From positions 1 to 49,945 of IMG/VR virus record IMGVR_UViG_3300005253_000501: a stretch of DNA of 49,945 nucleotides; one strand, 5' to 3'. The stretch comes from a virus. The notes below the pieces were generated by a model. That model searched no databases and was not told the origin of the DNA. It saw only the letters and a list, made by a program, of their open reading frames with translations. Every line of letters begins with the position of its first letter. Positions within the stretch are counted from its first letter, which is position 1. Below, piece after piece: positions 1,150 through 39,502 of this stretch. The position numbers were made by a program, and so were the translations under genes.

Positions 1150-2747
1150 TACCTTATTCTCCCTGCATCTTGTACATCAACCAATACTCTATTGATTGCA
1201 AACGTTTCACTTGCTGTAGAATTATAAAATTTTATTCCTATATAAGCACCACGTACCCTTAACCGTATCCGGGTTTTTCTCCCAGTTCCACTCAAGGTTC
1301 CTGTAACTTGTGGAGTAGCACCATCCTTAATATCCTCTATCAAAGTCTCTGCATCATCTGCTGAATATATATCATAAGTAACTCCATCTGAATCAGCGTG
1401 TGCACCTCCAGACGCTCCACCAGCTAATTCAATAGTCAATGAAGTTAATTTACCTTCCACATCCTCCTCTCCCATTTGTAAAATAGGATAAAGAACATAA
1501 GAAGAAATTGCATCATCAGTAGCACCTACATCATCACTCTTAGCTGCTGTATCAAACTTTCTGATATACCCATCTTTACAACCAACCAGCAAATCACGAT
1601 AATCTTTATCATTTGCATCATAATAGAATAAGGAATAAGCACCACACTCATCAGGATAAGACTCAGGAAACAACCCACTTATCTTAGCACCCAGACTAAA
1701 CCAATAATTTGAATTAGAGCCATCTGATAATTTTGTAATACAAATAACAATACCAAATCTTTTTCTATCATAAGCTAATGTAATTCTATGTGTTGTTGGA
1801 TCAGCATCCTCATCACCAATGAGTTCTGGTAAACTTATCTCTGAGATATTTGTAATCTTTCCCATATCTCTTTCCATCTTATAAAGACCACCAGTACCCC
1901 AGAAATATAAATTTCTCTCATTATCAAAACACCAACTGTGTGCTCCATATATTCCTACTGTTTTATCAAGATCATCCAATGAACCACCAGCAGCAGGATC
2001 ACCACGCAATACCCAGATACTTGTAGCACAACCAAATATTAAATAATCATCACTATATGGTATCAGGCATCGAACAATATCCCCAATCAAACCAGCATCT
2101 GCATTTCCGCCAGCTACAGGTGATTGTGCATCACTGGCAGTATAAGCAAAATCCGTATGATCTGCTTGACGAGACATATACCATTGCTCAGGATTATCTG
2201 AATTTCCAGATAAAACCATCCTCCCTCTCCATAGACACCCAAGATACGCCTGATCGGGCAAAGAACCTGAAGCATCATCAGGGTACACTGTCCAATCATA
2301 CCAATGAGGTGTGGTAGATGCCTGTGCTACAGCAGAAGGTACTTTGTCTTCAGGGTCCATACTTCCACCTGATAAAGCTCCTGATGTTACAAATGTACCA
2401 CTTGTAGTATATCCATAAATTATTGTCTTAGCTGTATTAACAAAATCAACAAGCATAGTAGCACCTGATCCGGCTTGAGTAACTATTGATCCTCTTGTTG
2501 GTGCAGTTGTCAACGCTGCTACCGTCAATTTTGTATTGATAAAATCCGCAATCTTTAGATTAGTTCCATTGACAATAAAGACCTTCTGGAATCCTTCAAA
2601 CATTGTAAGATTATCAGAAGTATCAATGTCCCCATTAGCTGCTGCCAATTCTACCATTGTTCCTGCACTCACTTCGTACCAAGCCTCATTGTTTCCAATA
2701 GCAACCAGTCTTCTAACAGGTGCTCTTTCATTTAATGATACCACCAT
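1149..2747 (-). CDS. Tail nozzle/beta-propeller-like protein, large C-terminal part
   Basis: 532 residues of beta-rich sequence with repeated short blades such as DDYLIFGCATSIWVLRGDP, RNLYFWGTGGLYKME and RDLLVGCKDGYIRKFD. This is the kind of pattern found in the propeller body of podovirus nozzle (tail tubular B-like) proteins. The family's usual N-terminus is absent here and is found instead in the 79-residue frame at 3970-4209. The first 20 bases overlap the 3' end of an HNH endonuclease gene, whose end supplies the start codon. Residues 11-27 (VRRLVAIGNNEAWYEV) echo the last residues of the frame upstream of the HNH (VRRLVAASNNKIWYES). The gene therefore looks like the distal part of an interrupted gene, still open and probably expressed. 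Confidence 0.65.
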   Translation of the reverse strand: MVVSLNERAPVRRLVAIGNNEAWYEVSAGTMVELAAANGDIDTSDNLTMFEGFQKVFIVNGTNLKIADFINTKLTVAALTTAPTRGSIVTQAGSGATMLVDFVNTAKTIIYGYTTSGTFVTSGALSGGSMDPEDKVPSAVAQASTTPHWYDWTVYPDDASGSLPDQAYLGCLWRGRMVLSGNSDNPEQWYMSRQADHTDFAYTASDAQSPVAGGNADAGLIGDIVRCLIPYSDDYLIFGCATSIWVLRGDPAAGGSLDDLDKTVGIYGAHSWCFDNERNLYFWGTGGLYKMERDMGKITNISEISLPELIGDEDADPTTHRITLAYDRKRFGIVICITKLSDGSNSNYWFSLGAKISGLFPESYPDECGAYSLFYYDANDKDYRDLLVGCKDGYIRKFDTAAKSDDVGATDDAISSYVLYPILQMGEEDVEGKLTSLTIELAGGASGGAHADSDGVTYDIYSADDAETLIEDIKDGATPQVTGTLSGTGRKTRIRLRVRGAYIGIKFYNSTASETFAINRVLVDVQDAGRIR

Positions 2748-3171
2748 TATCTAAATACCTCTGTGCTATTGCACAAAATTGTTTATCTTCTACAATTGCT
2801 AATTTAGCATTACACTGTTGACAAAGCAATCCTCTTACTTTTCCCGTTTTATGGTTGTGGTCAACACATAAAGATATATCCAATTTAGATTGATGTTTGC
2901 CACACATTGCACAACATCCCTCTTGTTCAACAAACATTCTATCCCAATCTTTTATTGTAATGCCATATCTTTGTTTTAATTTAACATTCCTAAAATATTC
3001 TTTTTGTTTTTTAGAAATTTTTCTTTTAATTTCTGGTTTATGATAATGTTCTCTATTCCAAGAATTATGACAACTCTTACACCAATAAGTTAACCCATCT
3101 TTAGCATGTTGTTTCTTATAAAATTCAGATAAATCTTTCTTCTTTTTACATTGAGTACATTTCTTTTTCAT
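2728..3171 (-). CDS. HNH homing endonuclease (endonuclease VII family), inserted in tail gene
   Basis: 147 residues. The N-terminus has a zinc-ribbon-like KCTQCKKKKDLSEF...CKSC. The C-terminal half has the recombination endonuclease VII signature GCCAMCGKHQ, VDHNHKTGKVRGLLC and QQCN, with the metal ligands and the catalytic DH intact. The start overlaps the upstream stop by ATGA and the end overlaps the next gene by 20 bases. It thus sits exactly between two parts of what appears to be one tail gene. Free-standing homing nucleases of this type spread by cutting uninserted alleles. It is the first of four intact copies in the window. Confidence 0.9.
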   Translation of the reverse strand: MKKKCTQCKKKKDLSEFYKKQHAKDGLTYWCKSCHNSWNREHYHKPEIKRKISKKQKEYFRNVKLKQRYGITIKDWDRMFVEQEGCCAMCGKHQSKLDISLCVDHNHKTGKVRGLLCQQCNAKLAIVEDKQFCAIAQRYLDNGGIIK

Positions 3172-7878: not shown

Positions 7879-8370
7879 TTAAAACTCTTCTATGTAATCT
7901 GCGGCACGTCTTAACCTAACAGGCTCATCACCCATCGAACCAAGTGCTGTGTTGCAAGCATTACATAACAATCCTCTAATCTTCATTGTCTTATGACAAT
8001 GGTCAACATCAAACGCTTTTCCTAAACCAGCCTGATGACGTCCACAGATAGCACAACAACCATTTTGTTTCTTTATAAGACTGTCATACATCTCTACATA
8101 ATCATCAACAGACATACCAAATCTACTTGCCCTACCACGTAAACGGCGAGCTTTACGATATTCAGCATCGGATTGATACCTCTTGTGGTATCGAGCATTC
8201 TGCTGTTTATTAAGTTTGATCCGATTCTTTAGAAGATACCCTCTACATTGTTCCTTACCACAAGATTTACATCCCGGACACAAACCATCCTTAGCTGATG
8301 TACGTTTATGAAACTCAGATATTGATTTAACCTGTTTACATTTTGTACAACGCTTAGTAAGCTTTGGCAT
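7879..8370 (-). CDS. HNH homing endonuclease (endonuclease VII family)
   Basis: 163 residues. Zinc-ribbon-like N-terminus (CTKCKQVKSISEF, CPGCKSCG) and an endonuclease VII core: GCCAICGRHQ, VDHCHKTMKIRGLLC, NACNTALGSMGD. All expected metal ligands and the catalytic DH are present. It lies between the major capsid gene and the capsid-associated gene, a typical intergenic home for a free-standing homing nuclease. It is diverged from the copy at 2728-3171, so recent duplication within this genome is unlikely. Confidence 0.9.
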   Translation of the reverse strand: MPKLTKRCTKCKQVKSISEFHKRTSAKDGLCPGCKSCGKEQCRGYLLKNRIKLNKQQNARYHKRYQSDAEYRKARRLRGRASRFGMSVDDYVEMYDSLIKKQNGCCAICGRHQAGLGKAFDVDHCHKTMKIRGLLCNACNTALGSMGDEPVRLRRAADYIEEF

Positions 8371-18477: not shown

Positions 18478-20400
18478 ATGAAACGTACTTTTATAACAAA
18501 TTTATCTGATCTTCAGGATTGGTGCTTTAGTACAGACTTAAAGAAAGTTGCATTTGATACTGAAAGTCGTTCTGAAAATGATACAAAGAAGGGTGCTCTT
18601 GATTATTCATTGTTATATTGGATCGGTGCTTCTTTCTGTAATGGTAAGAGTACCTGCTACATTGATCTTGATGTACCTGATCGTGATAAGATGATAGCTT
18701 TTTTAGAGTATCAATTTCGTACTCAGATAAAGAAACTGATAGGTCAGAATATTCAATATGATATGATGGTACTTTATAAATATGGGATTCAACATACTGA
18801 AGATATTTATTGTACTATGGTTGCTGCACATTTGATTGATGAAAGAGGACCAAAGAGTTTGAAAGATTTGACAGCACGTTATCTTTCTCCCAGAAAAATC
18901 GTCAAATGGAAAGATGTAGAAGGCATAGATCATCATTCAGAACAATTTTATGATTATGGTGCTGATGATGCTCAGAACACTTGGGAACTTCACGAAGTAT
19001 TTTATCCTAAACTGGCTCGTGAGAAACTTACATATCTTATGTTCAAGATAGAAATGCCGTTCCAATTTATATTACGTGATTTACATATAAACGGAATTCT
19101 CATAGATCAAAAGAAACTTCAGGAAATAGAAGATTTAGTCAAACCAATTATGTTAGAGTCTGAAAATAAGATGCTTGAAATGATTGGAAAGAAAGCTTTT
19201 ATTGATAGAGCATTTTGGGAGGACTTAGATGCTCGTAAGGTATCTGTAAACTTTAATAGCAACAAACAAGTAATTCCTCTTCTTATGGAAAAGTTTGGTA
19301 TTGAGTTTACCGAACTTACTGTTAGTGGGGAAAAACGAAAGCGTGAGAAATTAGAGGTGGGAGATTCTTATTGGAAACTTGATAAATTGATATTAGGCGG
19401 TACTGAATTGGACAATGGTGTGATCGGTGGTTTAGCTCAAAAATATCCATTCTGTCGTGAACTACTTATATATCGTATGGCATTTGATATAAAAGGTAAA
19501 TTCACTGTGAAAATGAAGGAGTCATTAAGCCCGGATGGTCGCATCAGATGTTCATTCAATGACACTGTAGCTGCTACTGGTCGATTAAGTTCCTCGGACC
19601 CCAATCTCCAGAATCTAAGAAAGTTAAATGTGGTACTCAATGTAGAGTGTCGATCGTGTTTTATTACACCAGAAGGTAAATCATTTATTGTTGCTGATTA
19701 TGCTGGGCAAGAGCTTCGTATCTTAGCATTTGAAACTCAAGACCCTACACTTCTGAGAGTTTTTGAAAAAGACATGGATTTACATCTAATGACAGCTAAT
19801 TTATTATTTGATCTTGGACTCACAGAAAATGAAATGACCAAGGGAAATGCAGATTATGAGGTTGCTCGTGAAAAGTACAAAGTAGAAAGACACTGGGGTA
19901 AAAACGGTTTCAACTTCCCGGTTGTTTATGGTAGCACTGAATACGGAATATCAAAAAGTATAGGAGTGTCTGTCAAGGAAGCAAAAAGGTTGCTTGATAA
20001 ATTCTTGGATCAGTATCCCGGAATTAAAGATGGAATTGCAGATTGTGAAGAAAGAATTAAGCTGTATGGTTATGTTACTAATCATGCTGGAAGACGTAGG
20101 AGATTTGATGGATTCAGCAAGAGAGCATTAAGACAAGCGTTCAATTTCAAAATCCAAGGATATTCTGCAGAAATGCTTCGTCTTGGTATGGTTAATGTCA
20201 GACAAGTTATATTGAAACATCCTGAGTGGGATATGAAGCTTGTGCTTACAATCCATGACGAAGTTGTATTAGAAATTGATGATAAATATATTGAAGAGGC
20301 AATCCCTTTAATAAAAGAAGCTATGAACACTGCTGTCAATATTGGAATTCCTATTGAAACCGACATTGGTATTGGGAAAGTTTATTCGGAGGCAAAATGA
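18478..20400 (+). CDS. polA: Family A DNA polymerase
   Basis: 640 residues. 3'-5' exonuclease domain: VAFDTES with Asp27 and Glu29, GQNIQYDMMVL with Asp95, and YGADDAQNTW with Asp164, so proofreading looks intact. Polymerase domain: motif A VADYAGQELRILA near residue 406, motif B with R...GK...NFPVVYG near 472-485, motif C IHDEVVLEI near 592. There is no 5'-3' nuclease domain, as in T7-type polymerases. Motif B has one extra residue between the conserved Lys and Phe compared with Klenow. It starts the plus-strand replication arm; AAGGATGTAAA precedes the ATG. Confidence 0.95.
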   Translation: MKRTFITNLSDLQDWCFSTDLKKVAFDTESRSENDTKKGALDYSLLYWIGASFCNGKSTCYIDLDVPDRDKMIAFLEYQFRTQIKKLIGQNIQYDMMVLYKYGIQHTEDIYCTMVAAHLIDERGPKSLKDLTARYLSPRKIVKWKDVEGIDHHSEQFYDYGADDAQNTWELHEVFYPKLAREKLTYLMFKIEMPFQFILRDLHINGILIDQKKLQEIEDLVKPIMLESENKMLEMIGKKAFIDRAFWEDLDARKVSVNFNSNKQVIPLLMEKFGIEFTELTVSGEKRKREKLEVGDSYWKLDKLILGGTELDNGVIGGLAQKYPFCRELLIYRMAFDIKGKFTVKMKESLSPDGRIRCSFNDTVAATGRLSSSDPNLQNLRKLNVVLNVECRSCFITPEGKSFIVADYAGQELRILAFETQDPTLLRVFEKDMDLHLMTANLLFDLGLTENEMTKGNADYEVAREKYKVERHWGKNGFNFPVVYGSTEYGISKSIGVSVKEAKRLLDKFLDQYPGIKDGIADCEERIKLYGYVTNHAGRRRRFDGFSKRALRQAFNFKIQGYSAEMLRLGMVNVRQVILKHPEWDMKLVLTIHDEVVLEIDDKYIEEAIPLIKEAMNTAVNIGIPIETDIGIGKVYSEAK

Positions 20401-20913: not shown

Positions 20914-21151
20914 TAAAGTTGTTGTTTGGATATTTGAAGATGGAGAAGAAGAAATAACTATTAGAATTCCTGTAAATAAGAAGATTTTTACAGAAGGGCG
21001 ATATGCGTATATTACTGAGGCGCATGATATAACCTTTGTACGTAGAGAGAGATTGATTACAACATCGATTCCAATGGTTGAAGAAATATTCTATCTTTGC
21101 AGACAAAGTAGTATAACTTTCGTAGATACTACTGTAGCAATAATAAATTGA
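20873..21151 (+). CDS. Small protein, unknown
   Basis: 92 residues from ATG at 20873, preferred because GGAGCTATTTAACG lies just upstream. Beta-rich with alternating charge (VVVWIFEDGEEEITIRIPVNK). No family recognised. Part of the polymerase operon. Confidence 0.6.
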   Translation: MEKTRQFVPVLLNDKVVVWIFEDGEEEITIRIPVNKKIFTEGRYAYITEAHDITFVRRERLITTSIPMVEEIFYLCRQSSITFVDTTVAIIN

Positions 21152-21170
21152 TATTTTGAGGAGTTTGAAA

Positions 21171-21887: not shown

Positions 21888-22277
21888 ATGAAATTAGCAA
21901 CTAAAGAATACAATAAAATTTATTATCAAAAAAATAAGAAAAATATTCTTAAACATCATAAACATTATAAAGAAACCAAGAAAGAAAAAATAGCCTTTGC
22001 CAGTTATAAGTATAATATTAAAATAAGATATGGTATGACTATAGAAGATTACAATAAAATATTTATTAAACAAAATGGTTGTTGTGCAATTTGTGGAAGA
22101 CAGCAATCAAAACAGAAGCGTAGATTAAGTGTTGACCATAATCACAAAACTGGTCAAATTCGTGGTTTGTTGTGTCAATCTTGTAATGCCCATCTTGCTT
22201 GGTTGGAAAATTATAATGTTGATATTGAGAAACATATTAACTGTACTACTATTGGAGGAAGAAAAGAATGCGGTTAG
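21888..22277 (+). CDS. HNH homing endonuclease (endonuclease VII family)
   Basis: 129 residues. Basic helical N-terminus, YGMTIEDYNKIFIKQNGCC, then CAICGRQQSKQKRRLSVDH, HKTGQIRGLLCQSCNAHLAW. Metal ligands and the DH pair are intact. Unlike the minus-strand copies it lacks the N-terminal zinc ribbon. Inserted between the metallopeptidase-like gene and the SLOG-like gene, overlapping the latter by 10 bases. Confidence 0.9.
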   Translation: MKLATKEYNKIYYQKNKKNILKHHKHYKETKKEKIAFASYKYNIKIRYGMTIEDYNKIFIKQNGCCAICGRQQSKQKRRLSVDHNHKTGQIRGLLCQSCNAHLAWLENYNVDIEKHINCTTIGGRKECG

Positions 22278-22625: not shown

Positions 22626-22695
22626 TGGTCTTTTAGTGTAATGGCAGCACTCCGAGTAGGGGTTCGGGAAACTGGTTCGATTCCAGATAGACTAC
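22626..22695 (+). tRNA. Aberrant tRNA-like gene, isotype uncertain
   Basis: Acceptor TGGTCTT (22626-22632) pairs with TAGACTA (22688-22694) with one wobble and one mismatch. The D-arm with AATGGCA and the T-arm CTGG-TTCGATT-CCAG are clear. The anticodon stem TCCGA/TCGGG encloses an 8-base loop GTAGGGGT; taking T22657 as U33 the anticodon would read AGG, with extra G's. Variable loop and linker are short. It may be a degenerate tRNA or one with an expanded anticodon loop. No CCA is encoded. Confidence 0.5.
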
Positions 22696-22696
22696 T

Positions 22697-22767
22697 GTGG
22701 CTGTGGTGTAATGGTAGCACAACAGGTCGTGATCCTGTGGGTGTGGATTCGACTTCCATCGGTCACC
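22697..22767 (+). tRNA. tRNA-His (GTG)
   Basis: Full cloverleaf: acceptor GTGGCTG/CGGTCAC with discriminator C at 22767, D stem GTGT/GCAC, anticodon stem ACAGG/CCTGT with loop TCGTGAT, T stem GTGGA/TCCAT with loop TTCGACT. C73 is the histidine-type discriminator. Two oddities: position 33 is C instead of T, and position -1 is T where histidine tRNAs have G. CCA is not encoded. Starts one base after the upstream tRNA-like gene, so both are processed from one transcript. Confidence 0.8.
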
Positions 22768-23000: not shown

Positions 23001-23285
23001 ATGAAAGAAAAATCTGGTAGAAAAAAATACAAAAGAGAATGGAATTTCAAGAAAAAATACAACCTAACTCTTAAACAACACAGGCAGATGTACATCGGCC
23101 AGAATGGTTGTTGTGCAATATGTGAAAAAGCTGTTTCTCTTGATAAAATAGATGTTGACCACGACCATAAAACAGGTAAAGTCCGAGGTTTGCTGTGTAG
23201 GGGCTGTAATTTAAGTTTAGGTCATTTTGGGGATAATCCTCAGATTCTCTTTAATGCAATAAGACATCTTCAAGCATCATCTTGA
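23001..23285 (+). CDS. HNH homing endonuclease, short (endonuclease VII family)
   Basis: 94 residues: basic N-terminus, YNLTLKQHRQMYIGQNGCC, CAICEKAV, DVDHDHKTGKVRGLLC, RGCNLSLGHFGDNP. It is the minimal catalytic core with all metal ligands. It has its own promoter and no room for a ribosome site upstream of the ATG, unlike the other three copies, which are embedded in operons. Confidence 0.9.
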   Translation: MKEKSGRKKYKREWNFKKKYNLTLKQHRQMYIGQNGCCAICEKAVSLDKIDVDHDHKTGKVRGLLCRGCNLSLGHFGDNPQILFNAIRHLQASS

Positions 23286-23874
23286 TTAACCATACATGTA
23301 CTATTCTCTATTGATACTCAATATCTGTATAGACTTTTCTTAAACCCCCGTATTTTTTACATAATCCTCTATATTCAACTCTAAACAATGGTTTTCCTTA
23401 AAACTCTCCTGACATAAGTGCTATTTTCTGTGGGGCTATTATATTTTTCAGGGGAGGTATCACCTCTATACCACCCTCCGCCTTATCGGACCTACCACCG
23501 GGGTAGCCTATCTTCTTGGTGTATGGCAATGCTTCATTGACTGATGCTCAGTATATGCTCTTGACGTGTGTATATGCTCTATGCCCTTGCCCTTGCCTGT
23601 GTAGCTCTATGATGTACACATAGCCCAAAGCTACGAAGCTCTTCGTACTATGTATATGCGTGATGGCTGGTGGCTGGTTGGGAGGGGGTACTCCTCATGG
23701 CTCACGCTCAACAACACCTATTACTCAATCATATCCTTTACTCTATGGTTCTATATGCTCACGCCACTGCTTCATCCTCGTCCTATAATATCTGTATTGA
23801 TTGTATAGCTTGTGTGTGCCCTTATTGGCCTATAAATGGTCATGAAAAAATCTTTTATTTATTTAATTATTTAC
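23286..23874. other. Non-coding region with iteron-like repeats and hairpins
   Basis: About 590 bases without a credible gene. It contains three copies of TATATGCTC (23552-23560, 23571-23579, 23752-23760) and a variant TATATGCG (23653-23660), the hairpin TACGAA-GCTC-TTCGTA (23632-23647), a hairpin around GGTAT...ATACC near 23457-23474, and one arm of a long-range inverted repeat (23531-23557). Composition is richer in C, T and G than the flanks. An origin or a regulatory RNA are the best guesses. Confidence 0.5.
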
Positions 23875-23903
23875 TTGCATTTTGATTAAAAGTAGTTTAT
23901 ACT
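23875..23903 (+). promoter_or_regulatory. Promoter of the small-gene cluster
   Basis: TTGCAT (23875-23880), 17-base spacer, TATACT (23898-23903). It lies just upstream of the first of many tiny genes and points into them. Confidence 0.65.
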
Positions 23904-23958
23904 ATAAGTATAAGACATTGACAAGTTAAGATGGGTTTATGATTTTAAGGAGTTGATT

Positions 23959-24058: not shown

Positions 24059-24070
24059 GGCAAGGATGCC
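24059..24070 (+). repeat. A-NGGA-U hairpin, copy 1
   Basis: GGCA-AGGA-TGCC, extendable by ACG...CGT across one bulged C. It contains CAAGGATG, matching the CANGGANG core of CsrA/RsmE sites. Lies 10 bases after the upstream stop codon. Confidence 0.7.
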
Positions 24071-24096
24071 CGTCATTATAGTTGGGGGATAAGAAA

Positions 24097-24150
24097 ATGA
24101 GACGTGAAATATGGATTCTGACAATATTGGCTTATTTGGTGTTGTGTTAA
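24097..24150 (+). CDS. Very small hydrophobic peptide
   Basis: 17 residues, MRREIWILTILAYLVLC, after GGGGGATAAGAAA. Positive N-terminus followed by one short hydrophobic helix ending in Cys. Likely translated given the ribosome site, function unknown. Confidence 0.45.
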   Translation: MRREIWILTILAYLVLC

Positions 24151-24183
24151 GTAATGTTTTCACCTTGTTTTGGGAGTTTTACC

Positions 24184-24306
24184 ATGAAAGTAGAAATACA
24201 CGAAATATCGCTTGAAATAGAAGTACCGGAGATTACTGAAATATCGCTTGATTTTGAAACGGAAATTATTGAAGTACCACTTGATATAGAAGCATTGATT
24301 CAATAA
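24184..24306 (+). CDS. Small acidic repeat peptide
   Basis: 40 residues made of near repeats: EISLEIEVPEIT, EISLDFETEI, IEVPLDIEALI. Strongly acidic, with strictly alternating hydrophobic and charged residues that suggest a beta ladder or an amphipathic surface. Ribosome site GGGAGTTTTACC. No family recognised. Confidence 0.55.
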   Translation: MKVEIHEISLEIEVPEITEISLDFETEIIEVPLDIEALIQ

Positions 24307-24314
24307 AGGAACAC

Positions 24315-24326
24315 GGCACGGATGCC
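24315..24326 (+). repeat. A-NGGA-U hairpin, copy 2
   Basis: GGCA-CGGA-TGCC, 8 bases after a stop codon, with CACGGATG. It forms the start of a 51-base element repeated at 24557-24607. Confidence 0.7.
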
Positions 24327-24370
24327 ATGCAATAATATCCTAAGTATTAGGTAATGAATTACCATACTAT
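24320..24370 (+). repeat. Intercistronic 51-base direct repeat, copy A
   Basis: Identical in 50 of 51 positions to 24557-24607. After the GGA hairpin it holds two further small hairpins, CCTAA-GTA-TTAGG and GGTAA-TGAA-TTACC, then ATACTAT. It separates two small genes and leads into the ribosome site of the next. Confidence 0.75.
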
Positions 24371-24390
24371 ATAATTAAGGAGTATTTGAG

Positions 24391-24543
24391 ATGTTAGATC
24401 AAATATTAAAATATTGTATTGCAAAAGAATATTCGTTTGAAGTAATAGCTGCGATGGTTGACAAGTTTAATGAAGACGAAGAATTTTGGCAGTCTATGGA
24501 ATTAAGTAAACTACATGATTTTGTTGTTTACGGCGAATATTAA
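24391..24543 (+). CDS. Small acidic protein, unknown
   Basis: 50 residues, helical, MLDQILKYCIAKEYSFEVIA then FNEDEEFWQSMELSKLHDF. Ribosome site AAGGAGTATTTGAG. No family recognised; flanked on both sides by the repeated intercistronic element. Confidence 0.6.
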   Translation: MLDQILKYCIAKEYSFEVIAAMVDKFNEDEEFWQSMELSKLHDFVVYGEY

Positions 24544-24550
24544 ACAACAC

Positions 24551-24563
24551 GGTCAAGGATGCC
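24551..24563 (+). repeat. A-NGGA-U hairpin, copy 3
   Basis: GG(T)CA-AGGA-TGCC with one bulged T, containing CAAGGATG. The loop and closing A-U are kept although the 5' arm has gained a base. Confidence 0.65.
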
Positions 24564-24607
24564 ATGCAATAATATCCTAAGTATTAGGTAATGAAGTACC
24601 ATACTAT
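24557..24607 (+). repeat. Intercistronic 51-base direct repeat, copy B
   Basis: Second copy of 24320-24370 with a single change (T to G) in the arm of the last hairpin. Followed by the ribosome site TTAGGAGATTGATT of the next gene. Confidence 0.75.
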
Positions 24608-24622
24608 TTTAGGAGATTGATT

Positions 24623-24748
24623 ATGTATGTTAATGGTGAAGAAATCAAAATGCCGAAAGTATGGAAATGGATATGGATAGGCTATTTAGTCATAAATGTT
24701 TATTTGATGTTACATGGCTGGAGGCTGTGGGATGGTTTGAACTTCTAA
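24623..24748 (+). CDS. Small membrane protein
   Basis: 41 residues: short polar N-terminus, then KVWKWIWIGYLVINVYLMLH, a Trp-rich membrane segment, and a Trp-containing C-terminus. Ribosome site TTAGGAGATTGATT. Unknown function. Confidence 0.6.
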   Translation: MYVNGEEIKMPKVWKWIWIGYLVINVYLMLHGWRLWDGLNF

Positions 24749-24808
24749 AGAGTTGGGTTTTGTTGTTTGGGCTATCCTGATGGGCATAGCACTTAATTAG
24801 GGGATATT

Positions 24809-24907
24809 ATGAAAACTCTTAAAAGAATTGGTAAACAGATTAAAAGACGTATGATGCGTCCAGAAAAGAGAATCAAAAAGATTTATACTAATTGGAGGAA
24901 TTTCTAA
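24809..24907 (+). CDS. Small highly basic peptide
   Basis: 32 residues, 14 of them Lys or Arg (LKRIGKQIKRRMMRPEKRIK). Probably binds nucleic acid or acidic protein. Ends one base into the next start (TAATG). Confidence 0.5.
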   Translation: MKTLKRIGKQIKRRMMRPEKRIKKIYTNWRNF

Positions 24908-25113
24908 TGTTTAATGTAAATGACAGAGTAAAAGTAGTAGCATCGGCGGAGTTATCTGGAGAATGTTGTGTCAAGCATCTAATCGGCAAGGTAGGGACTA
25001 TTACAAAAACAGGTAGCGGGGTATCGGTTGATACCATGTTGTCGGTTAAACTTGACGGTCCCAAAGGGATAGAAGACGCATTTTGGCCAGAAGAACTTGA
25101 AAAGATAGGATAA
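24907..25113 (+). CDS. Small SH3-like beta-barrel protein
   Basis: 68 residues from ATG at 24907, preceded by TTGGAGGAATTTCTA. DRVKVVASAELSGECC, LIGKVGTITKTGSG, LSVKLDGPKG and FWPEELEKI resemble the strand order of KOW/SH3-like small domains. Assignment by pattern only. Confidence 0.55.
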   Translation: MFNVNDRVKVVASAELSGECCVKHLIGKVGTITKTGSGVSVDTMLSVKLDGPKGIEDAFWPEELEKIG

Positions 25114-25122
25114 CACGGAATC

Positions 25123-25134
25123 GGCATGGATGCC
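25123..25134 (+). repeat. A-NGGA-U hairpin, copy 4
   Basis: GGCA-TGGA-TGCC with CATGGATG, 9 bases after a stop codon and just upstream of the TTAGGAGATTGATT ribosome site. Confidence 0.7.
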
Positions 25135-25154
25135 TACTATTTAGGAGATTGATT

Positions 25155-25364
25155 ATGAAAACGTATAGCGTAGCAATTAAAGTTCGGAAAGGCTATTGGG
25201 TAACTAATTGGGATGCGTTCTTTAATTTGTCGGATATAGATTGGGCTGATGTTTTAAGCTACTGCAAAAAGTCTGGTCATTTGGCTTTCGGTTATTATTA
25301 TGGCTGGAAGTCTAATGAGCTAACGTCAGCAAGATGCAGGACTGAATTGGCTTATATAATCTAA
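25155..25364 (+). CDS. Small protein, unknown
   Basis: 69 residues from ATG at 25155. VAIKVRKGYWVTNWDAFFNL, DIDWADVLSYCKKSG and FGYYYGWKSNE; aromatic-rich, probably a compact alpha/beta fold. No family recognised. Confidence 0.6.
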   Translation: MKTYSVAIKVRKGYWVTNWDAFFNLSDIDWADVLSYCKKSGHLAFGYYYGWKSNELTSARCRTELAYII

Positions 25365-25376
25365 AGGGGGTTAAAT

Positions 25377-25508
25377 ATGGAATACAAAATAGTTTGTGAC
25401 GGTAAGGTTATTGCTCGTTTTGTAAATGAGTGCGACCGGGATTACGCTTTGGATGCCTTAGCAGAGCAGTTTCCAGATTCAGAGTTCGTTGGGACTAAAC
25501 AGGAGTAA
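25377..25508 (+). CDS. Small protein, unknown
   Basis: 43 residues, acidic: YKIVCDGKVIARFVNECDRD then ALDALAEQFPDSEF. Beta-beta-alpha pattern. Ribosome site AGGGGGTTAAAT. No family recognised. Confidence 0.55.
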   Translation: MEYKIVCDGKVIARFVNECDRDYALDALAEQFPDSEFVGTKQE

Positions 25509-25517
25509 ACAGGGACC

Positions 25518-25531
25518 GGGAACGGATTCCC
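25518..25531 (+). repeat. A-NGGA-U hairpin, copy 5
   Basis: GGGAA-CGGA-TTCCC. All three stem pairs below the G-C base differ from copies 1-4 and remain paired, while the CGGA loop and closing A-T are kept. Followed by GCAATAATAT as in copies 2 and 3. Confidence 0.7.
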
Positions 25532-25570
25532 CGCAATAATATCAATACTATTTAATTAAGGGAATATGAT

Positions 25571-25750
25571 ATGAAAATTTCAAAAGAAATTATCAGTGCT
25601 TTAGAACGGGCAAAAATCAAAATAAAGAAAATTGAAATGAAACCGGTTCTAAAAGAATATCGAGCTGGTAGTGCATGGCTCGGAGACATAAATGATATAA
25701 TTGACCGGACGGTGTTGGCGGTCCGGGACGAATTAGAAAGTATAAAATAA
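25571..25750 (+). CDS. Small helical protein, unknown
   Basis: 59 residues, basic helical first half (SALERAKIKIKKIEMKPVLK), then LGDINDIIDRTVLAVRDELE. No family recognised. The next promoter starts 6 bases after its stop. Confidence 0.55.
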   Translation: MKISKEIISALERAKIKIKKIEMKPVLKEYRAGSAWLGDINDIIDRTVLAVRDELESIK

Positions 25751-25755
25751 AAGAC

Positions 25756-25784
25756 TTGACATGTACAATTAAATAGTATATAAT
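25756..25784 (+). promoter_or_regulatory. Perfect-consensus sigma-70 promoter
   Basis: TTGACA (25756-25761), 17-base spacer, TATAAT (25779-25784): both hexamers exact. The extended block AGTATATAATTAGAATAGAT recurs with one change at 27027-27046. It drives the ComM-like gene 56 bases downstream. Confidence 0.85.
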
Positions 25785-25839
25785 TAGAATAGATGACGAC
25801 GATAGCTTTATTATTGTGGCTTTTTAATGGGGGTTAAAA

Positions 25840-26316
25840 ATGGTACTTATCGAAAATGACTACGTTACAGTTGAGGTTCCGGCTTATGTTACAAGAGCGA
25901 TTGACGTTGCTGATGTAGCTAAAAAACAGTTGCTCATTGTATCTACTGACCCGGTCTTTAATAAGATAGAGGGGGCAACTGTTGTAACGCCTTGCCCTTG
26001 TGGGTTTTTTGGGCATGATATTATAAAATGCAGATGCCAACTGGTACAAATAGAGAAGCATCAGTTTGCAATACGAGAAACTTACCGAGAGGGTTACATT
26101 AGGATCGACGGATTATTTTGCTCAAGGAATATAAAATATAAACAACTTGACGAGACGTGTTTACTGCTACTCAAACACGCGATTTCAGAACTAAGCCTCT
26201 CCATCTATCAACTATTACTTATTACTGATGTTGCTGGAGCTATTGCAAAAATGGACGGGACTAAAACTGTTCGCTCGGAGCATATTGCCGAAGCCTTGGC
26301 GTATCGAACGATATAA
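25840..26316 (+). CDS. ComM/YifB-like protein lacking the ATPase core
   Basis: 158 residues. CPCGFFGHDIIKCRC (Cys52, 54, 64, 66) is the zinc-binding insert of the ComM/Mg-chelatase-like family, followed by QIEKHQF. The C-terminus SIYQLLLITDVAGAIAKMDG then RSEHIAEALAYR matches the lid domain that ends those proteins. The Walker-motif ATPase part is absent, so it cannot act as a motor on its own. It could join host ComM hexamers and block or redirect them, or use only the zinc module. It has its own perfect-consensus promoter, suggesting strong early expression. Confidence 0.7.
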   Translation: MVLIENDYVTVEVPAYVTRAIDVADVAKKQLLIVSTDPVFNKIEGATVVTPCPCGFFGHDIIKCRCQLVQIEKHQFAIRETYREGYIRIDGLFCSRNIKYKQLDETCLLLLKHAISELSLSIYQLLLITDVAGAIAKMDGTKTVRSEHIAEALAYRTI

Positions 26317-26371
26317 AAACAGAATATGGCTGATAGTTTAACCGAGGCTGTTTATTTGAAGGAGTTTGCTT

Positions 26372-26503
26372 ATGGAAATGGATAAAGACGAAGATGAGAA
26401 CCAAGTACCGCATTGTCCCAGTTGTGGAGCACCACTGGGCGTAAATGGTGATATGGAAATACAGCCGTGTCAAGGTTGTGCCGATGGGAATATTCCTGAA
26501 TAG
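26372..26503 (+). CDS. Small zinc-ribbon protein
   Basis: 43 residues: acidic start, then HCPSCGAPLGVNG and QPCQGCADG, two CxxC pairs forming a likely zinc ribbon. Ribosome site GAAGGAGTTTGCTT. Confidence 0.6.
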   Translation: MEMDKDEDENQVPHCPSCGAPLGVNGDMEIQPCQGCADGNIPE

Positions 26504-26517
26504 ATAGGGGATTGATT

Positions 26518-26628
26518 ATGAAAGACCAATATGATGATGATGATGTACCAGATGATTTGGTTTTGATGCCGTGTAAACAATTTGATGATAAATTCGATAA
26601 GTTAATATTGTTTAATCAAGGAGTTTGA
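26518..26628 (+). CDS. Small acidic peptide
   Basis: 36 residues with an Asp run (QYDDDDVPDD). Ribosome site GGGGATTGATT. Its final codons carry the ribosome site of the next gene. Unknown function; strongly acidic small phage proteins are often DNA mimics, but nothing here proves it. Confidence 0.45.
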   Translation: MKDQYDDDDVPDDLVLMPCKQFDDKFDKLILFNQGV

Positions 26629-26629
26629 A

Positions 26630-26806
26630 ATGAAAGCATTGTTAAAGAAATTGCAGGACGAACAGGCAAGGGCACAAACACGTTATGACAAAGCTGTAAC
26701 TACTCGTGAAGCAACGAGTAAAGTAGCAGAGGAAGCAAATGGAAGCCTTGAACGCATCACTTACGCAGTTAGTTGTTTGGAAAGTTATATTAGTGGCGGT
26801 AAATAG
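26630..26806 (+). CDS. Small coiled-coil protein
   Basis: 58 residues, nearly all helical: LLKKLQDEQARAQTRYDKAV and SKVAEEANGSLERITYAV. Starts right after the previous stop. No family recognised. Confidence 0.55.
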   Translation: MKALLKKLQDEQARAQTRYDKAVTTREATSKVAEEANGSLERITYAVSCLESYISGGK

Positions 26807-26817
26807 GATCGAATCAT

Positions 26818-26831
26818 GGCGACGGATCGCC
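26818..26831 (+). repeat. A-NGGA-U hairpin, copy 6
   Basis: GGCGA-CGGA-TCGCC. The third and fourth stem pairs differ from all other copies and still pair. Followed by TGCAATAATA and the ribosome site TAAGGAGATTGATT. Confidence 0.7.
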
Positions 26832-26864
26832 CTGCAATAATACTAATTATTAAGGAGATTGATT

Positions 26865-27035
26865 ATGAAAAAAGTAACAATAAAATTAGAGTTGTGTATT
26901 ATAATGTCAATAGATGAAAGCATTGAAATTTCAGAAGTAGTCAACGAATTGGACTACTGTGTAAAGGATACTACAAAGACTGCTAATATCTTAGAGACTC
27001 AACTCACAGATTACGAAGTTGTCAATAGTGTATAA
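26865..27035 (+). CDS. Small protein, unknown
   Basis: 56 residues: VTIKLELCIIMSIDESIEIS then VVNELDYCVKDTTKTANILE. Beta-helix pattern. The last codons contain a TATAAT, probably the -10 of the next promoter. Confidence 0.55.
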   Translation: MKKVTIKLELCIIMSIDESIEISEVVNELDYCVKDTTKTANILETQLTDYEVVNSV

Positions 27036-30045: not shown

Positions 30046-30210
30046 ATGTCTAATATATTGCTTTGTGCCTGTGGTGGTAAGTGCGAGGGTGTTTGCCGGG
30101 AAAATCATTTAGATAGAGTGAGGCTAAGGGGCACTAAAGAAGAATTTGTTAAATGTCCATCGGCGTATACAGAAGAAAAAAGGAGGGATCATTTTGAAAG
30201 TAGAAAATAA
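30046..30210 (+). CDS. Small Cys-rich protein
   Basis: 54 residues from ATG at 30046 (AAAGGAGAGACA). ILLCACGGKCEGVCREN gives four close Cys, probably a metal site; the C-terminus is charged. Overlaps the nuclease start. Confidence 0.55.
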   Translation: MSNILLCACGGKCEGVCRENHLDRVRLRGTKEEFVKCPSAYTEEKRRDHFESRK

Positions 30211-31198
30211 AGAACACCTACCGGAATTATTATATAATGCTTTAGCTGAAAATCGGCCACCAGTTGAGGGGGAGATACATGTGACAACTTTGATAGGTCC
30301 ACCTTTGATTGATTATTTGAGACGCAAACATTGGAATGAATTAGTAGATGATGCAAGCAATCGTTTATTTGCATTATTAGGAACAGGACTTCATGCAGGA
30401 ATAGCAAATGATGGTCGTATTGAGCGTGCTATAAAGGTATTAGATGATGTGATTGAAAACTGGGGTAAAATAGATGATTATATAATTTTATCTATTATCC
30501 AGAATTTACTAAAATCTCTTGGTAGTGTAGGACGTACAGGAATTGAATCACAACTCAAACTTAAACTAAGTGACAAATGGACATTGGTTGGGACAGACGA
30601 TCATTTTGATGAAGATGTTGGCAAACTCATGGACTGGAAGATCACATCGGTCTGGAGTGTATTATTTGCAGATCATAACTGGGAAGATCAATTAAATGTA
30701 TATGCCTATATGAGACGTAAACTCGGTTATGAAGTAAAGAGCCTTGAAGTATGGGCATTATTGCGTGATTGGCAGAAAAGCAAAGCTAAATATGGCAATG
30801 ATCCAAACTATCCAAGAGTACCCTTTGTCAGAATTCCATTGCGTTTATGGAGCTTGGAAGAACAGGAGGATTATATATACAAAAGACTTTCCCTGTTTGA
30901 TGGTGCTCCGGGTGAGTGTACTCCCGAAGAAAAATGGGAGTCACCTACAGTATATAAGGTAATGAAAAAGGGTAGGAAATCCGCTCTTGTTGCTACTCGG
31001 TGGATCAATAACGAAAAGAAGGACTTGTTAAGCATAGCCGATGCTATGTCTGCTGCCGGTGCTAAGAATCATGTAGTAGATGGAACTAATATTTATATTG
31101 AGAAGTTTGAGGGTGAAGCAAGACGTTGTCAAGATTATTGCAACTGTAATACTTTTTGTCCTTATTATGTAGGAGATAAACAATGTATAATTATGTAG
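30194..31198 (+). CDS. RecB/Cas4-like PD-(D/E)XK nuclease
   Basis: 334 residues from TTG at 30194, chosen because AAAGGAGGGATCATT precedes it; no ATG fits. The core LVGTDDHFDE and GKLMDWKIT gives the Asp and D-x-K (Asp147, Lys149) of the PD-(D/E)XK fold, and FALLGTGLHAGIA provides the upstream helix. The last 25 residues carry a Cys cluster (RRCQDYCNCNTFCPYY), as in Cas4/AddB-type iron-sulphur nucleases, but no N-terminal Cys is seen. Probably a phage recombination exonuclease; close to the NinB-like gene and SSB. Confidence 0.75.
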   Translation: MKVENKEHLPELLYNALAENRPPVEGEIHVTTLIGPPLIDYLRRKHWNELVDDASNRLFALLGTGLHAGIANDGRIERAIKVLDDVIENWGKIDDYIILSIIQNLLKSLGSVGRTGIESQLKLKLSDKWTLVGTDDHFDEDVGKLMDWKITSVWSVLFADHNWEDQLNVYAYMRRKLGYEVKSLEVWALLRDWQKSKAKYGNDPNYPRVPFVRIPLRLWSLEEQEDYIYKRLSLFDGAPGECTPEEKWESPTVYKVMKKGRKSALVATRWINNEKKDLLSIADAMSAAGAKNHVVDGTNIYIEKFEGEARRCQDYCNCNTFCPYYVGDKQCIIM

Positions 31199-38441: not shown

Positions 38442-38675
38442 ATGAAAGCATTTAAAAAATGGTGGGCAAAAGAACACCCACCGGGAACTTATCATTATGA
38501 AAAAGTTCATGACTGTATCGCCGGTGAAACTTGGAAAGCAGCTTTAGAATGGGTATATGACAAACTGGATCACAGCCAAGAACATGAAGAAATAAAAGAT
38601 GTTATAGAGGAAGAATTAACCCCACGTGAATTTCACCCCGGCTGTCCTGATAATGATTTGGAGAAAATTCGATGA
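38442..38675 (+). CDS. Small protein, unknown
   Basis: 77 residues: FKKWWAKEHPPGTYHYEKVH, ETWKAALEWVYDKLD, then an acidic tail. The KKWW and WKAALEWV phrases are seen in small phage proteins of unknown role. Overlaps the next gene by 4 bases. Confidence 0.6.
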   Translation: MKAFKKWWAKEHPPGTYHYEKVHDCIAGETWKAALEWVYDKLDHSQEHEEIKDVIEEELTPREFHPGCPDNDLEKIR

Positions 38676-39502
38676 CTATAAAAAAAGAAACAGGCAAAGA
38701 ACGAGTGTTTAATACTGGAGCTAAGAAACAAGCTGCATCCGGTAAAGGTACTCCGGTTTTTATACCGGGCGATGCTATCCTTGATATAGCAAAACACTTT
38801 GAAGATGGTGCGGAGCATTATGGTGCTCGTAATTGGGAAGCAGGAATTCCATTATCAGAATTATTGAATTCACTTGAGCGTCACTTACAGCAACTAAAGA
38901 TGGGCATGACCGATGAGTCACATGATCGAGCAATGGTTTGGAACGCAATAGTATATCTTGCAACGAAACTAAGAATTGAAGCTGGGATATTACCAGCAGA
39001 ACTCAATGATATGCCTAAATATGGAAAGCTTATGATTGGTCAAATTGATGCTGAAAATATCCTTAAAGAAGAATTTGACGAATCTCCCTATACTCTGGAA
39101 GATGGAGAAGCTATTGATAAAGTGATAGAAGATAGTGATGCTCGTATTCAAGAGGCCTGCAATAGACTTTATGGTAAATCTAAATCCGAATCTGAAGAGA
39201 AATTAGTAAGATGCAATGCTGTTACTTTTGGTTGTGTTAAAAGTAGATGTCCACATGAAGAGCCACATAAATATACAATAGCTTGTAATGAAAGTGGGCT
39301 ATGTAAAGCATGTAAACGTAGCAGATGTGAAGGGTTTTGTATTGAAATAGAAGGTCAGGCTGATCTTGAGAATGTAAAGTATTGTCGAGATTGTGTACAT
39401 CACACACCCAGAGGAAAAGTTTGTCTCGAAGGAATAATGCTATCAGGGGAGGATCAGGAAGTAGGAACTTGTCAATTATACGAACCTAATCACAAGAAGT
39501 GA
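38672..39502 (+). CDS. dATP/dGTP diphosphohydrolase-like (DUF5664) protein with Cys-rich tail
   Basis: 276 residues. The N-terminal 110 follow the DUF5664 pattern: VFNTGAKKQA, PGDAILDIAKHFEDGAEHYG, ARNWEAGIPLSELLNSLERH, DRAMVWNAIVYLATK. This family includes the MazZ enzyme of phages with 2-aminoadenine DNA, but many members occur elsewhere. The C-terminal 95 residues carry Cys groups (CVKSRCPHEEPHKYTIAC, CKACKRSRCEGFC, CRDCVH), probably zinc sites, an unusual addition. No PurZ-like gene was seen. Confidence 0.7.
   Translation: MTIKKETGKERVFNTGAKKQAASGKGTPVFIPGDAILDIAKHFEDGAEHYGARNWEAGIPLSELLNSLERHLQQLKMGMTDESHDRAMVWNAIVYLATKLRIEAGILPAELNDMPKYGKLMIGQIDAENILKEEFDESPYTLEDGEAIDKVIEDSDARIQEACNRLYGKSKSESEEKLVRCNAVTFGCVKSRCPHEEPHKYTIACNESGLCKACKRSRCEGFCIEIEGQADLENVKYCRDCVHHTPRGKVCLEGIMLSGEDQEVGTCQLYEPNHKK

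Follow-up and report, generated by a model that had tools for sequence, protein, structure and literature searches.

Introduction

Proteins of the CsrA/RsmA family bind short RNA hairpins whose recognition has been described in some detail. Ligands obtained for CsrA by systematic evolution of ligands by exponential enrichment share the consensus RUACARGGAUGU, in most cases form a six-base loop with AC/GU closing pairs, and contain at most four contiguous pairs (PMC7652899), while RsmN and RsmA recognise ANGGAN hexaloops and contact almost only the loop, the sequence of the stem mattering little (PMC3791407). A single CsrA dimer can bridge sites lying 10-63 nucleotides (nt) apart, which in the case of glgC are a hairpin just upstream of the Shine-Dalgarno (SD) sequence and the SD itself (PMC7652899). 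Genes for CsrA also occur on phages and plasmids (PMC7366521, PMC11879866), and knockdown of one phage csrA homologue shrinks plaques (PMC11879866). Here we analyse a hairpin element that recurs between the tiny genes of an uncultured tailed-phage contig, IMG/VR record IMGVR_UViG_3300005253_000501 (49,945 bases, 37.5% GC; hereafter the window, meaning the whole stretch), and that is found in related phages as well. We propose, with a probability of roughly 0.55, that each element acts in cis as a CsrA/RsmA-type translational operator, placed in the leader that precedes a short gene of the early phage mRNA.

The phage elements have in common with the leader hairpins of the Escherichia coli glgC type an ANGGA hexaloop, a short stem and a position upstream of the SD at 10-63 nt, but differ in that they recur ahead of many short genes within one phage region and carry a conserved GCAATAATA tail, and in that a host protein as their ligand is a prediction. 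With the sponge RNAs CsrB, CsrC and RsmX/Y/Z they share the presence of multiple ANGGA hairpins per transcript, whereas the phage sites are neither compact nor part of a separate small RNA, have no Rfam match and are interleaved with genes. The CsrA homologues of phages and plasmids (RsmM, RsmQ, PTXU04 gp28) are likewise a case of mobile elements engaging the Csr system; the present family, in contrast, would carry the sites and not the protein, as no csrA gene was found in the 19 phage family records searched, many of them fragments. Finally, the T4 RegB/S1 sites likewise have a GGA in early mRNA between genes, with an A-rich stretch further downstream, but the phage element comes without a regB gene, has a conserved hairpin and follows the consensus ANGGAN rather than GGAGRAYARAA. 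In the open-access literature we found no report of a phage family whose own mRNAs contain CsrA-type operators in an array.

Results

The initial annotation of the window had described six hairpins with A-NGGA-T loops, and all six were verified in position, loop and stem, the copy at 24551 requiring a one-base bulge. The distances given are from the loop GGA to the next SD.

24059..24070, plus strand: hairpin 1, GGCA-AGGA-TGCC, followed by a degenerate tail GTCATTATA; 21 nt
24315..24337, plus strand: hairpin 2, GGCA-CGGA-TGCC, tail GCAATAATA at 24329-24337; 59 nt
24551..24574, plus strand: hairpin 3, GG(T)CA-AGGA-TGCC with the one-base bulge, tail GCAATAATA at 24566-24574; 55 nt
25123..25134, plus strand: hairpin 4, GGCA-TGGA-TGCC, tail absent; 16 nt
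25518..25541, plus strand: hairpin 5, GGGAA-CGGA-TTCCC, tail GCAATAATA at 25533-25541; 36 nt
26818..26842, plus strand: hairpin 6, GGCGA-CGGA-TCGCC, tail GCAATAATA at 26834-26842; 30 nt

The loops begin 11-15 nt past the stop codon of a short open reading frame (ORF) and lie upstream of the next ribosome site, and the CANGGATG core that had been noted in four of the six is indeed present. The same 2.9 kb yielded seven matches, the six reported hairpins and a spurious one at 26454, compared to a mean of 0.25 and a maximum of 2 in 300 simulations of a Markov-1 control. On the plus strand of the window, A-NGGA-T hairpins with strict pairing and a G+C stem are confined to the 2.8-kb array region. 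The six hairpins are thus confirmed as real and far above chance. Two of the leaders contain a 54-nt duplicate (24317-24370 and 24554-24607, 96% identity), with extra hairpins CCTAAGTATTAGG and GGTAATGAATTACC after the element.

A further 13 copies were found in five related phage contigs, giving a total of 19 copies in six phages (window 6, L131 4, L272 4, L143 3, L219 1, L141 1); the DNA polymerase or terminase of the relatives is 36-89% identical to that of the window. Scanning 2.9 million viral contigs with a pattern of stem plus tail gave nine matches, among them two contigs with several copies, L037/L131 (four) and L129/L143 (three); L131 and L143 encode homologues of the window polymerase (78% and 37%) as well as terminase homologues. 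Wider patterns revealed L219, which has one copy and a terminase of 50% identity, and L245/L272, which has four copies, a portal-like protein at 39% and a capsid-like protein at 33%. A scan of the remaining relatives revealed L141, whose one copy has a wholly different stem, GCCCCG/CGGGGC. A first viral scan with CACGGCANGGATGCC had returned chance matches apart from L037, and the approximately 100 matches of the wider viral scans, nearly all lacking a stem, served as a negative control. There was no convincing match in cultured phages by BLAST, no matching Rfam family and no true copy in 85,000 species genomes, where the strict pattern gave just two matches, both stemless, and a host repeat or mobile element was rejected on this result. 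The tiny proteins flanking the elements are mostly unconserved beyond the close relative L131, whereas the element persists; hairpin 3 heads the gene at 24623, and the L131 orthologue of that gene likewise has an element directly upstream.

The 19 copies could be aligned without gaps, and covariation was computed on the 17 distinct rows. ANGGA is invariant in the loop (19/19, with N being A in eight, C in five, T in three and G in three copies) and is followed by T in 16, C in two and G in one. The stems, mostly of 3-5 base pairs (six in L141) and largely free in sequence, close a six-base loop. Pairing is found in 87% of the cells compared to 63% after shuffling, and changes on both sides of a pair in 18 cells compared to 5.3. 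The covariation score of 0.512 (shuffled, 0.102 +/- 0.041) was reached in 0 of 500 shuffles, a count that is not a probability, since related copies are not independent. The sliding control, in which every shifted register scored much worse than the true one, and the number of pair types (C-G, A-U and G-C next to the loop; G-C, C-G and U-A one pair further out) point in the same direction as the shuffle test. The covariation read from the window copies thus holds across all 19, pairing being maintained despite a complete change of stem sequence, and the conservation of the stems as pairs in homologous phages leaves the CsrA/RsmA reading of the initial annotation unrefuted. Its claim that the loop is always closed by A-T is correct for the window, where the pair is invariant, but not for three copies of relatives, which have A.C or A.G. 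Because of these three copies, and because the closing A-U pair never covaries, the selected unit is better described as an ANGGAN hexaloop on a free stem; the A.C and A.G copies rule out a tetraloop model with an obligatory A-U closing pair. GCANGG-AUG-CCNUGC, considered as an alternative hairpin, can pair in L143 and to some extent in hairpins 2 and 3, but not in the other copies.

Four of the window hairpins are followed, 1-2 nt past the 3' end of the stem, by the GCAATAATA tail, which had been overlooked; it is exact in 14 of the 19 copies and retains GCAAT in 17. Counted from the first base of the loop, it starts at exactly 11 nt in 14 of 17 copies, stem length notwithstanding, a fixed spacing that descent could explain. 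The AAUAAUA within it reads as two ARN triplets and might correspond to the (ARN)n repeat of an Hfq site. The same GCAATAATA occurs once in the window without an ANGGA hairpin, at 21137-21145, just upstream of an ORF starting near 21156.

Of the 18 copies with an assignable start, 17 have their loop GGA 16-60 nt ahead of the SD that follows, inside the 10-63 nt range of the CsrA-dimer bridging model for glgC. The single L141 copy, as read by eye, stands directly after a sigma-70-like promoter and before the start codon.

None of 50,697 phage records is closely related to the window, and the best phage matches of its proteins scatter across many hosts at 21-40% identity. Structural genes are carried on the minus strand up to approximately 17.3 kb, and replication genes, like the polymerase, on the plus strand. 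The interval between the polymerase and an exonuclease is an array of very short ORFs, most without a family match, and hairpins 1 to 6 occupy its first part, all in sense orientation.

18478-20400, plus strand: family-A DNA polymerase
24391..24543, plus strand: ORF of 50 amino acids (aa) downstream of hairpin 2, no family match
24623..24748, plus strand: 41-aa membrane-like ORF downstream of hairpin 3, L131 orthologue 73%
25155..25364, plus strand: 69-aa ORF downstream of hairpin 4, no family match
25571..25750, plus strand: 59-aa ORF downstream of hairpin 5, no family match
25756..25784, plus strand: sigma-70 promoter within the tiny-gene array, exact consensus TTGACA-17-TATAAT (a consensus match only)
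26865..27035, plus strand: 56-aa ORF downstream of hairpin 6, no family match
30146-31198: exonuclease

This promoter and the order of promoter and element in L141 would be consistent with early, host-dependent transcription.

Several other features of the window were recorded. Four related ORFs that resemble HNH-type endonucleases and carry CXXC motifs (21888-22277, 23001-23285, 2728-3171 and 7879-8370) are inserted between structural and early genes, with homologues scattered in relatives too. At 22627-22767, a tRNA-His(GTG) comes right behind an unusual tRNA-like gene whose anticodon was called with four bases (aggg). The approximately 650 nt at 23290-23950 are without convincing ORFs and contain CCTATAATA-type repeats that are also present in L131 and L219; this is possibly an origin or a regulatory region preceding the array. 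A 40-aa ORF at 24184-24306 consists of three degenerate repeats (ISLEIEVPEI-like) with a 21-nt DNA repeat present three times. At 38672-39502 a protein with a dATP/dGTP diphosphohydrolase N-terminal domain (PF18909) is encoded. The PF18909 family is also known from modified-adenine phages; no PurZ-like gene was found among the scanned ORFs.

Three regions of relatives were also recorded. The intergenic stretch L138:8985-9215 (minus strand) has eight ANGGA per 200 nt (maximum of seven in simulations), two ANGGAN hairpins, a folding z of -2.1 and a sub-threshold CsrB match (E 0.13), and is possibly a CsrB-like RNA or a product of chance. The GGA-rich noncoding region L142:8390-8660, upstream of the polymerase, contains the adjoining hairpins GGGCAC-ATGGAG-GTGCCC and CGC-ACGGAT-GCG; its overall fold stability is not unusual. 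Noncoding L141:8420-8660, downstream of the polymerase, has two tandem TATGGCAAGGAGGCCTTG repeat pairs (GGC-AAGGAG-GCC hairpins).

Discussion

The conserved, covarying hairpins and their consensus, ANGGAN on a short free stem, agree with the published CsrA/RsmA site, as the initial annotation had suggested, while the tail is not predicted by plain CsrA binding. In the mechanism we propose, a CsrA dimer, which the host would have to supply, would bind the ANGGA hexaloop, its high-affinity site, with one pocket and a GGA-containing SD, 16-60 nt further downstream, with the other, on the model of E. coli glgC. Ribosomes would be kept off each short gene while CsrA is bound, and repression would end once free CsrA falls or becomes inactive, or once phage transcripts outnumber CsrA.

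Several observations weigh against this proposal. The L219 element is 102 nt from its SD, one SD in L143 contains no GGA, the spacing between element and SD is partly dictated by short intergenic distances, and the hairpin is sometimes missing from the minimum-energy fold predicted for a whole leader. No recognisable element was found in, among other relatives, L134, L138, L140, L142, L145, L146 and L148-L150, each of which has several kilobases downstream of the polymerase, so that the presence of the element is patchy. Moreover, the strictly conserved GCAATAATA belongs to no CsrA site, and the GCAAUAAUA tail appears to be the main feature that plain CsrA binding leaves without explanation. 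It could bind Hfq or be part of what a protein reading loop and tail jointly would recognise.

The latter idea leads to a phage-encoded or other host RNA-binding protein that reads hairpin and tail as an operator or processing signal, the likeness to CsrA sites being coincidental. The tail is conserved almost like the loop and its 11-nt spacing holds despite variation in stem length, no known ligand accounts for both, and all element-bearing phages have genes of unknown function in common; however, the 19 copies by themselves yield a loop constraint of exactly ANGGAN on a free stem, the spacing may reflect simple descent, and gene searches found no candidate RNA-binding gene. We regard such a protein as a rather unlikely explanation.

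As a special case of the CsrA operator, the hairpin might hold CsrA and the A-rich AAUAAUA the distal face of Hfq, the two repressing jointly. Besides the two ARN triplets, this would fit the report that binding of RsmA to an mRNA can require Hfq (PMC7705225), but Hfq needs no strict GC ahead of AAUAAUA, and in the published case the Hfq sites are upstream and act via unfolding. No Hfq gene was found in the phage records searched. A composite site of this kind seems to us unlikely.

The initial annotation had left it open whether the array acts in cis or as a sponge, with many sites on the transcript titrating host CsrA off host mRNAs. As many as six sites share a strand, and a sigma-70-like promoter lies inside the array; this might recall CsrB and RsmZ, which act through multiple ANGGA hairpins (PMC7366521). 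However, the sites are 230-1300 nt apart and each is linked to a gene leader, some phages have a single copy only, no CsrB/RsmZ match was found in Rfam, and ANGGA density is ordinary (maximum of five per 200 nt on the plus strand of the window, simulation mean 5.0). One site per gene leader, wide spacing and an SD at bridging distance thus fit cis operators better, and a sponge becomes quite improbable.

A GGA-specific nuclease or generic RNA processing had also been considered. T4 RegB cleaves GGAG/U in early-gene intergenic regions, aided by a 3' A-rich stretch (PMC3014915), but both RegB (PF10715) and the ParE/RelE-superfamily toxin (PF05016) are absent from the six element-bearing records, RNA structure protects from RegB, GGAC loops exist and the invariant A two bases ahead of GGA would not be explained. 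With the consensus differing as well, processing of this type is very unlikely. Least probable is an element acting as DNA (a mobile repeat, promoter or recombination site), since, even if gene order around the copies differs between the window and L131 as for exchangeable cassettes, all copies are sense-oriented and nearly all lie between a stop and a start codon, the strict pattern found no true copies in species genomes, and GCAATAATA, tried as an extended -10, has neither a -35 partner nor a conserved TG ahead.

It is possible, and we say so tentatively, that these hairpins with their GCAAUAAUA tail at a fixed distance are an undescribed class of phage RNA element, through which early small genes would sense host CsrA activity, perhaps together with a second host protein on the tail, so that the timing of infection would depend on a host metabolic regulator. 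If true, the family would be a natural source of covariation data on the Csr site, with multiple copies to compare, and the conserved tail motif may reveal a second partner of CsrA. As far as can be judged from the sequences, our results suggest that a regulator belonging to the host may serve these phages to time the translation of their tiny genes, which would tie phage gene timing to the carbon and lifestyle regulation of the host.

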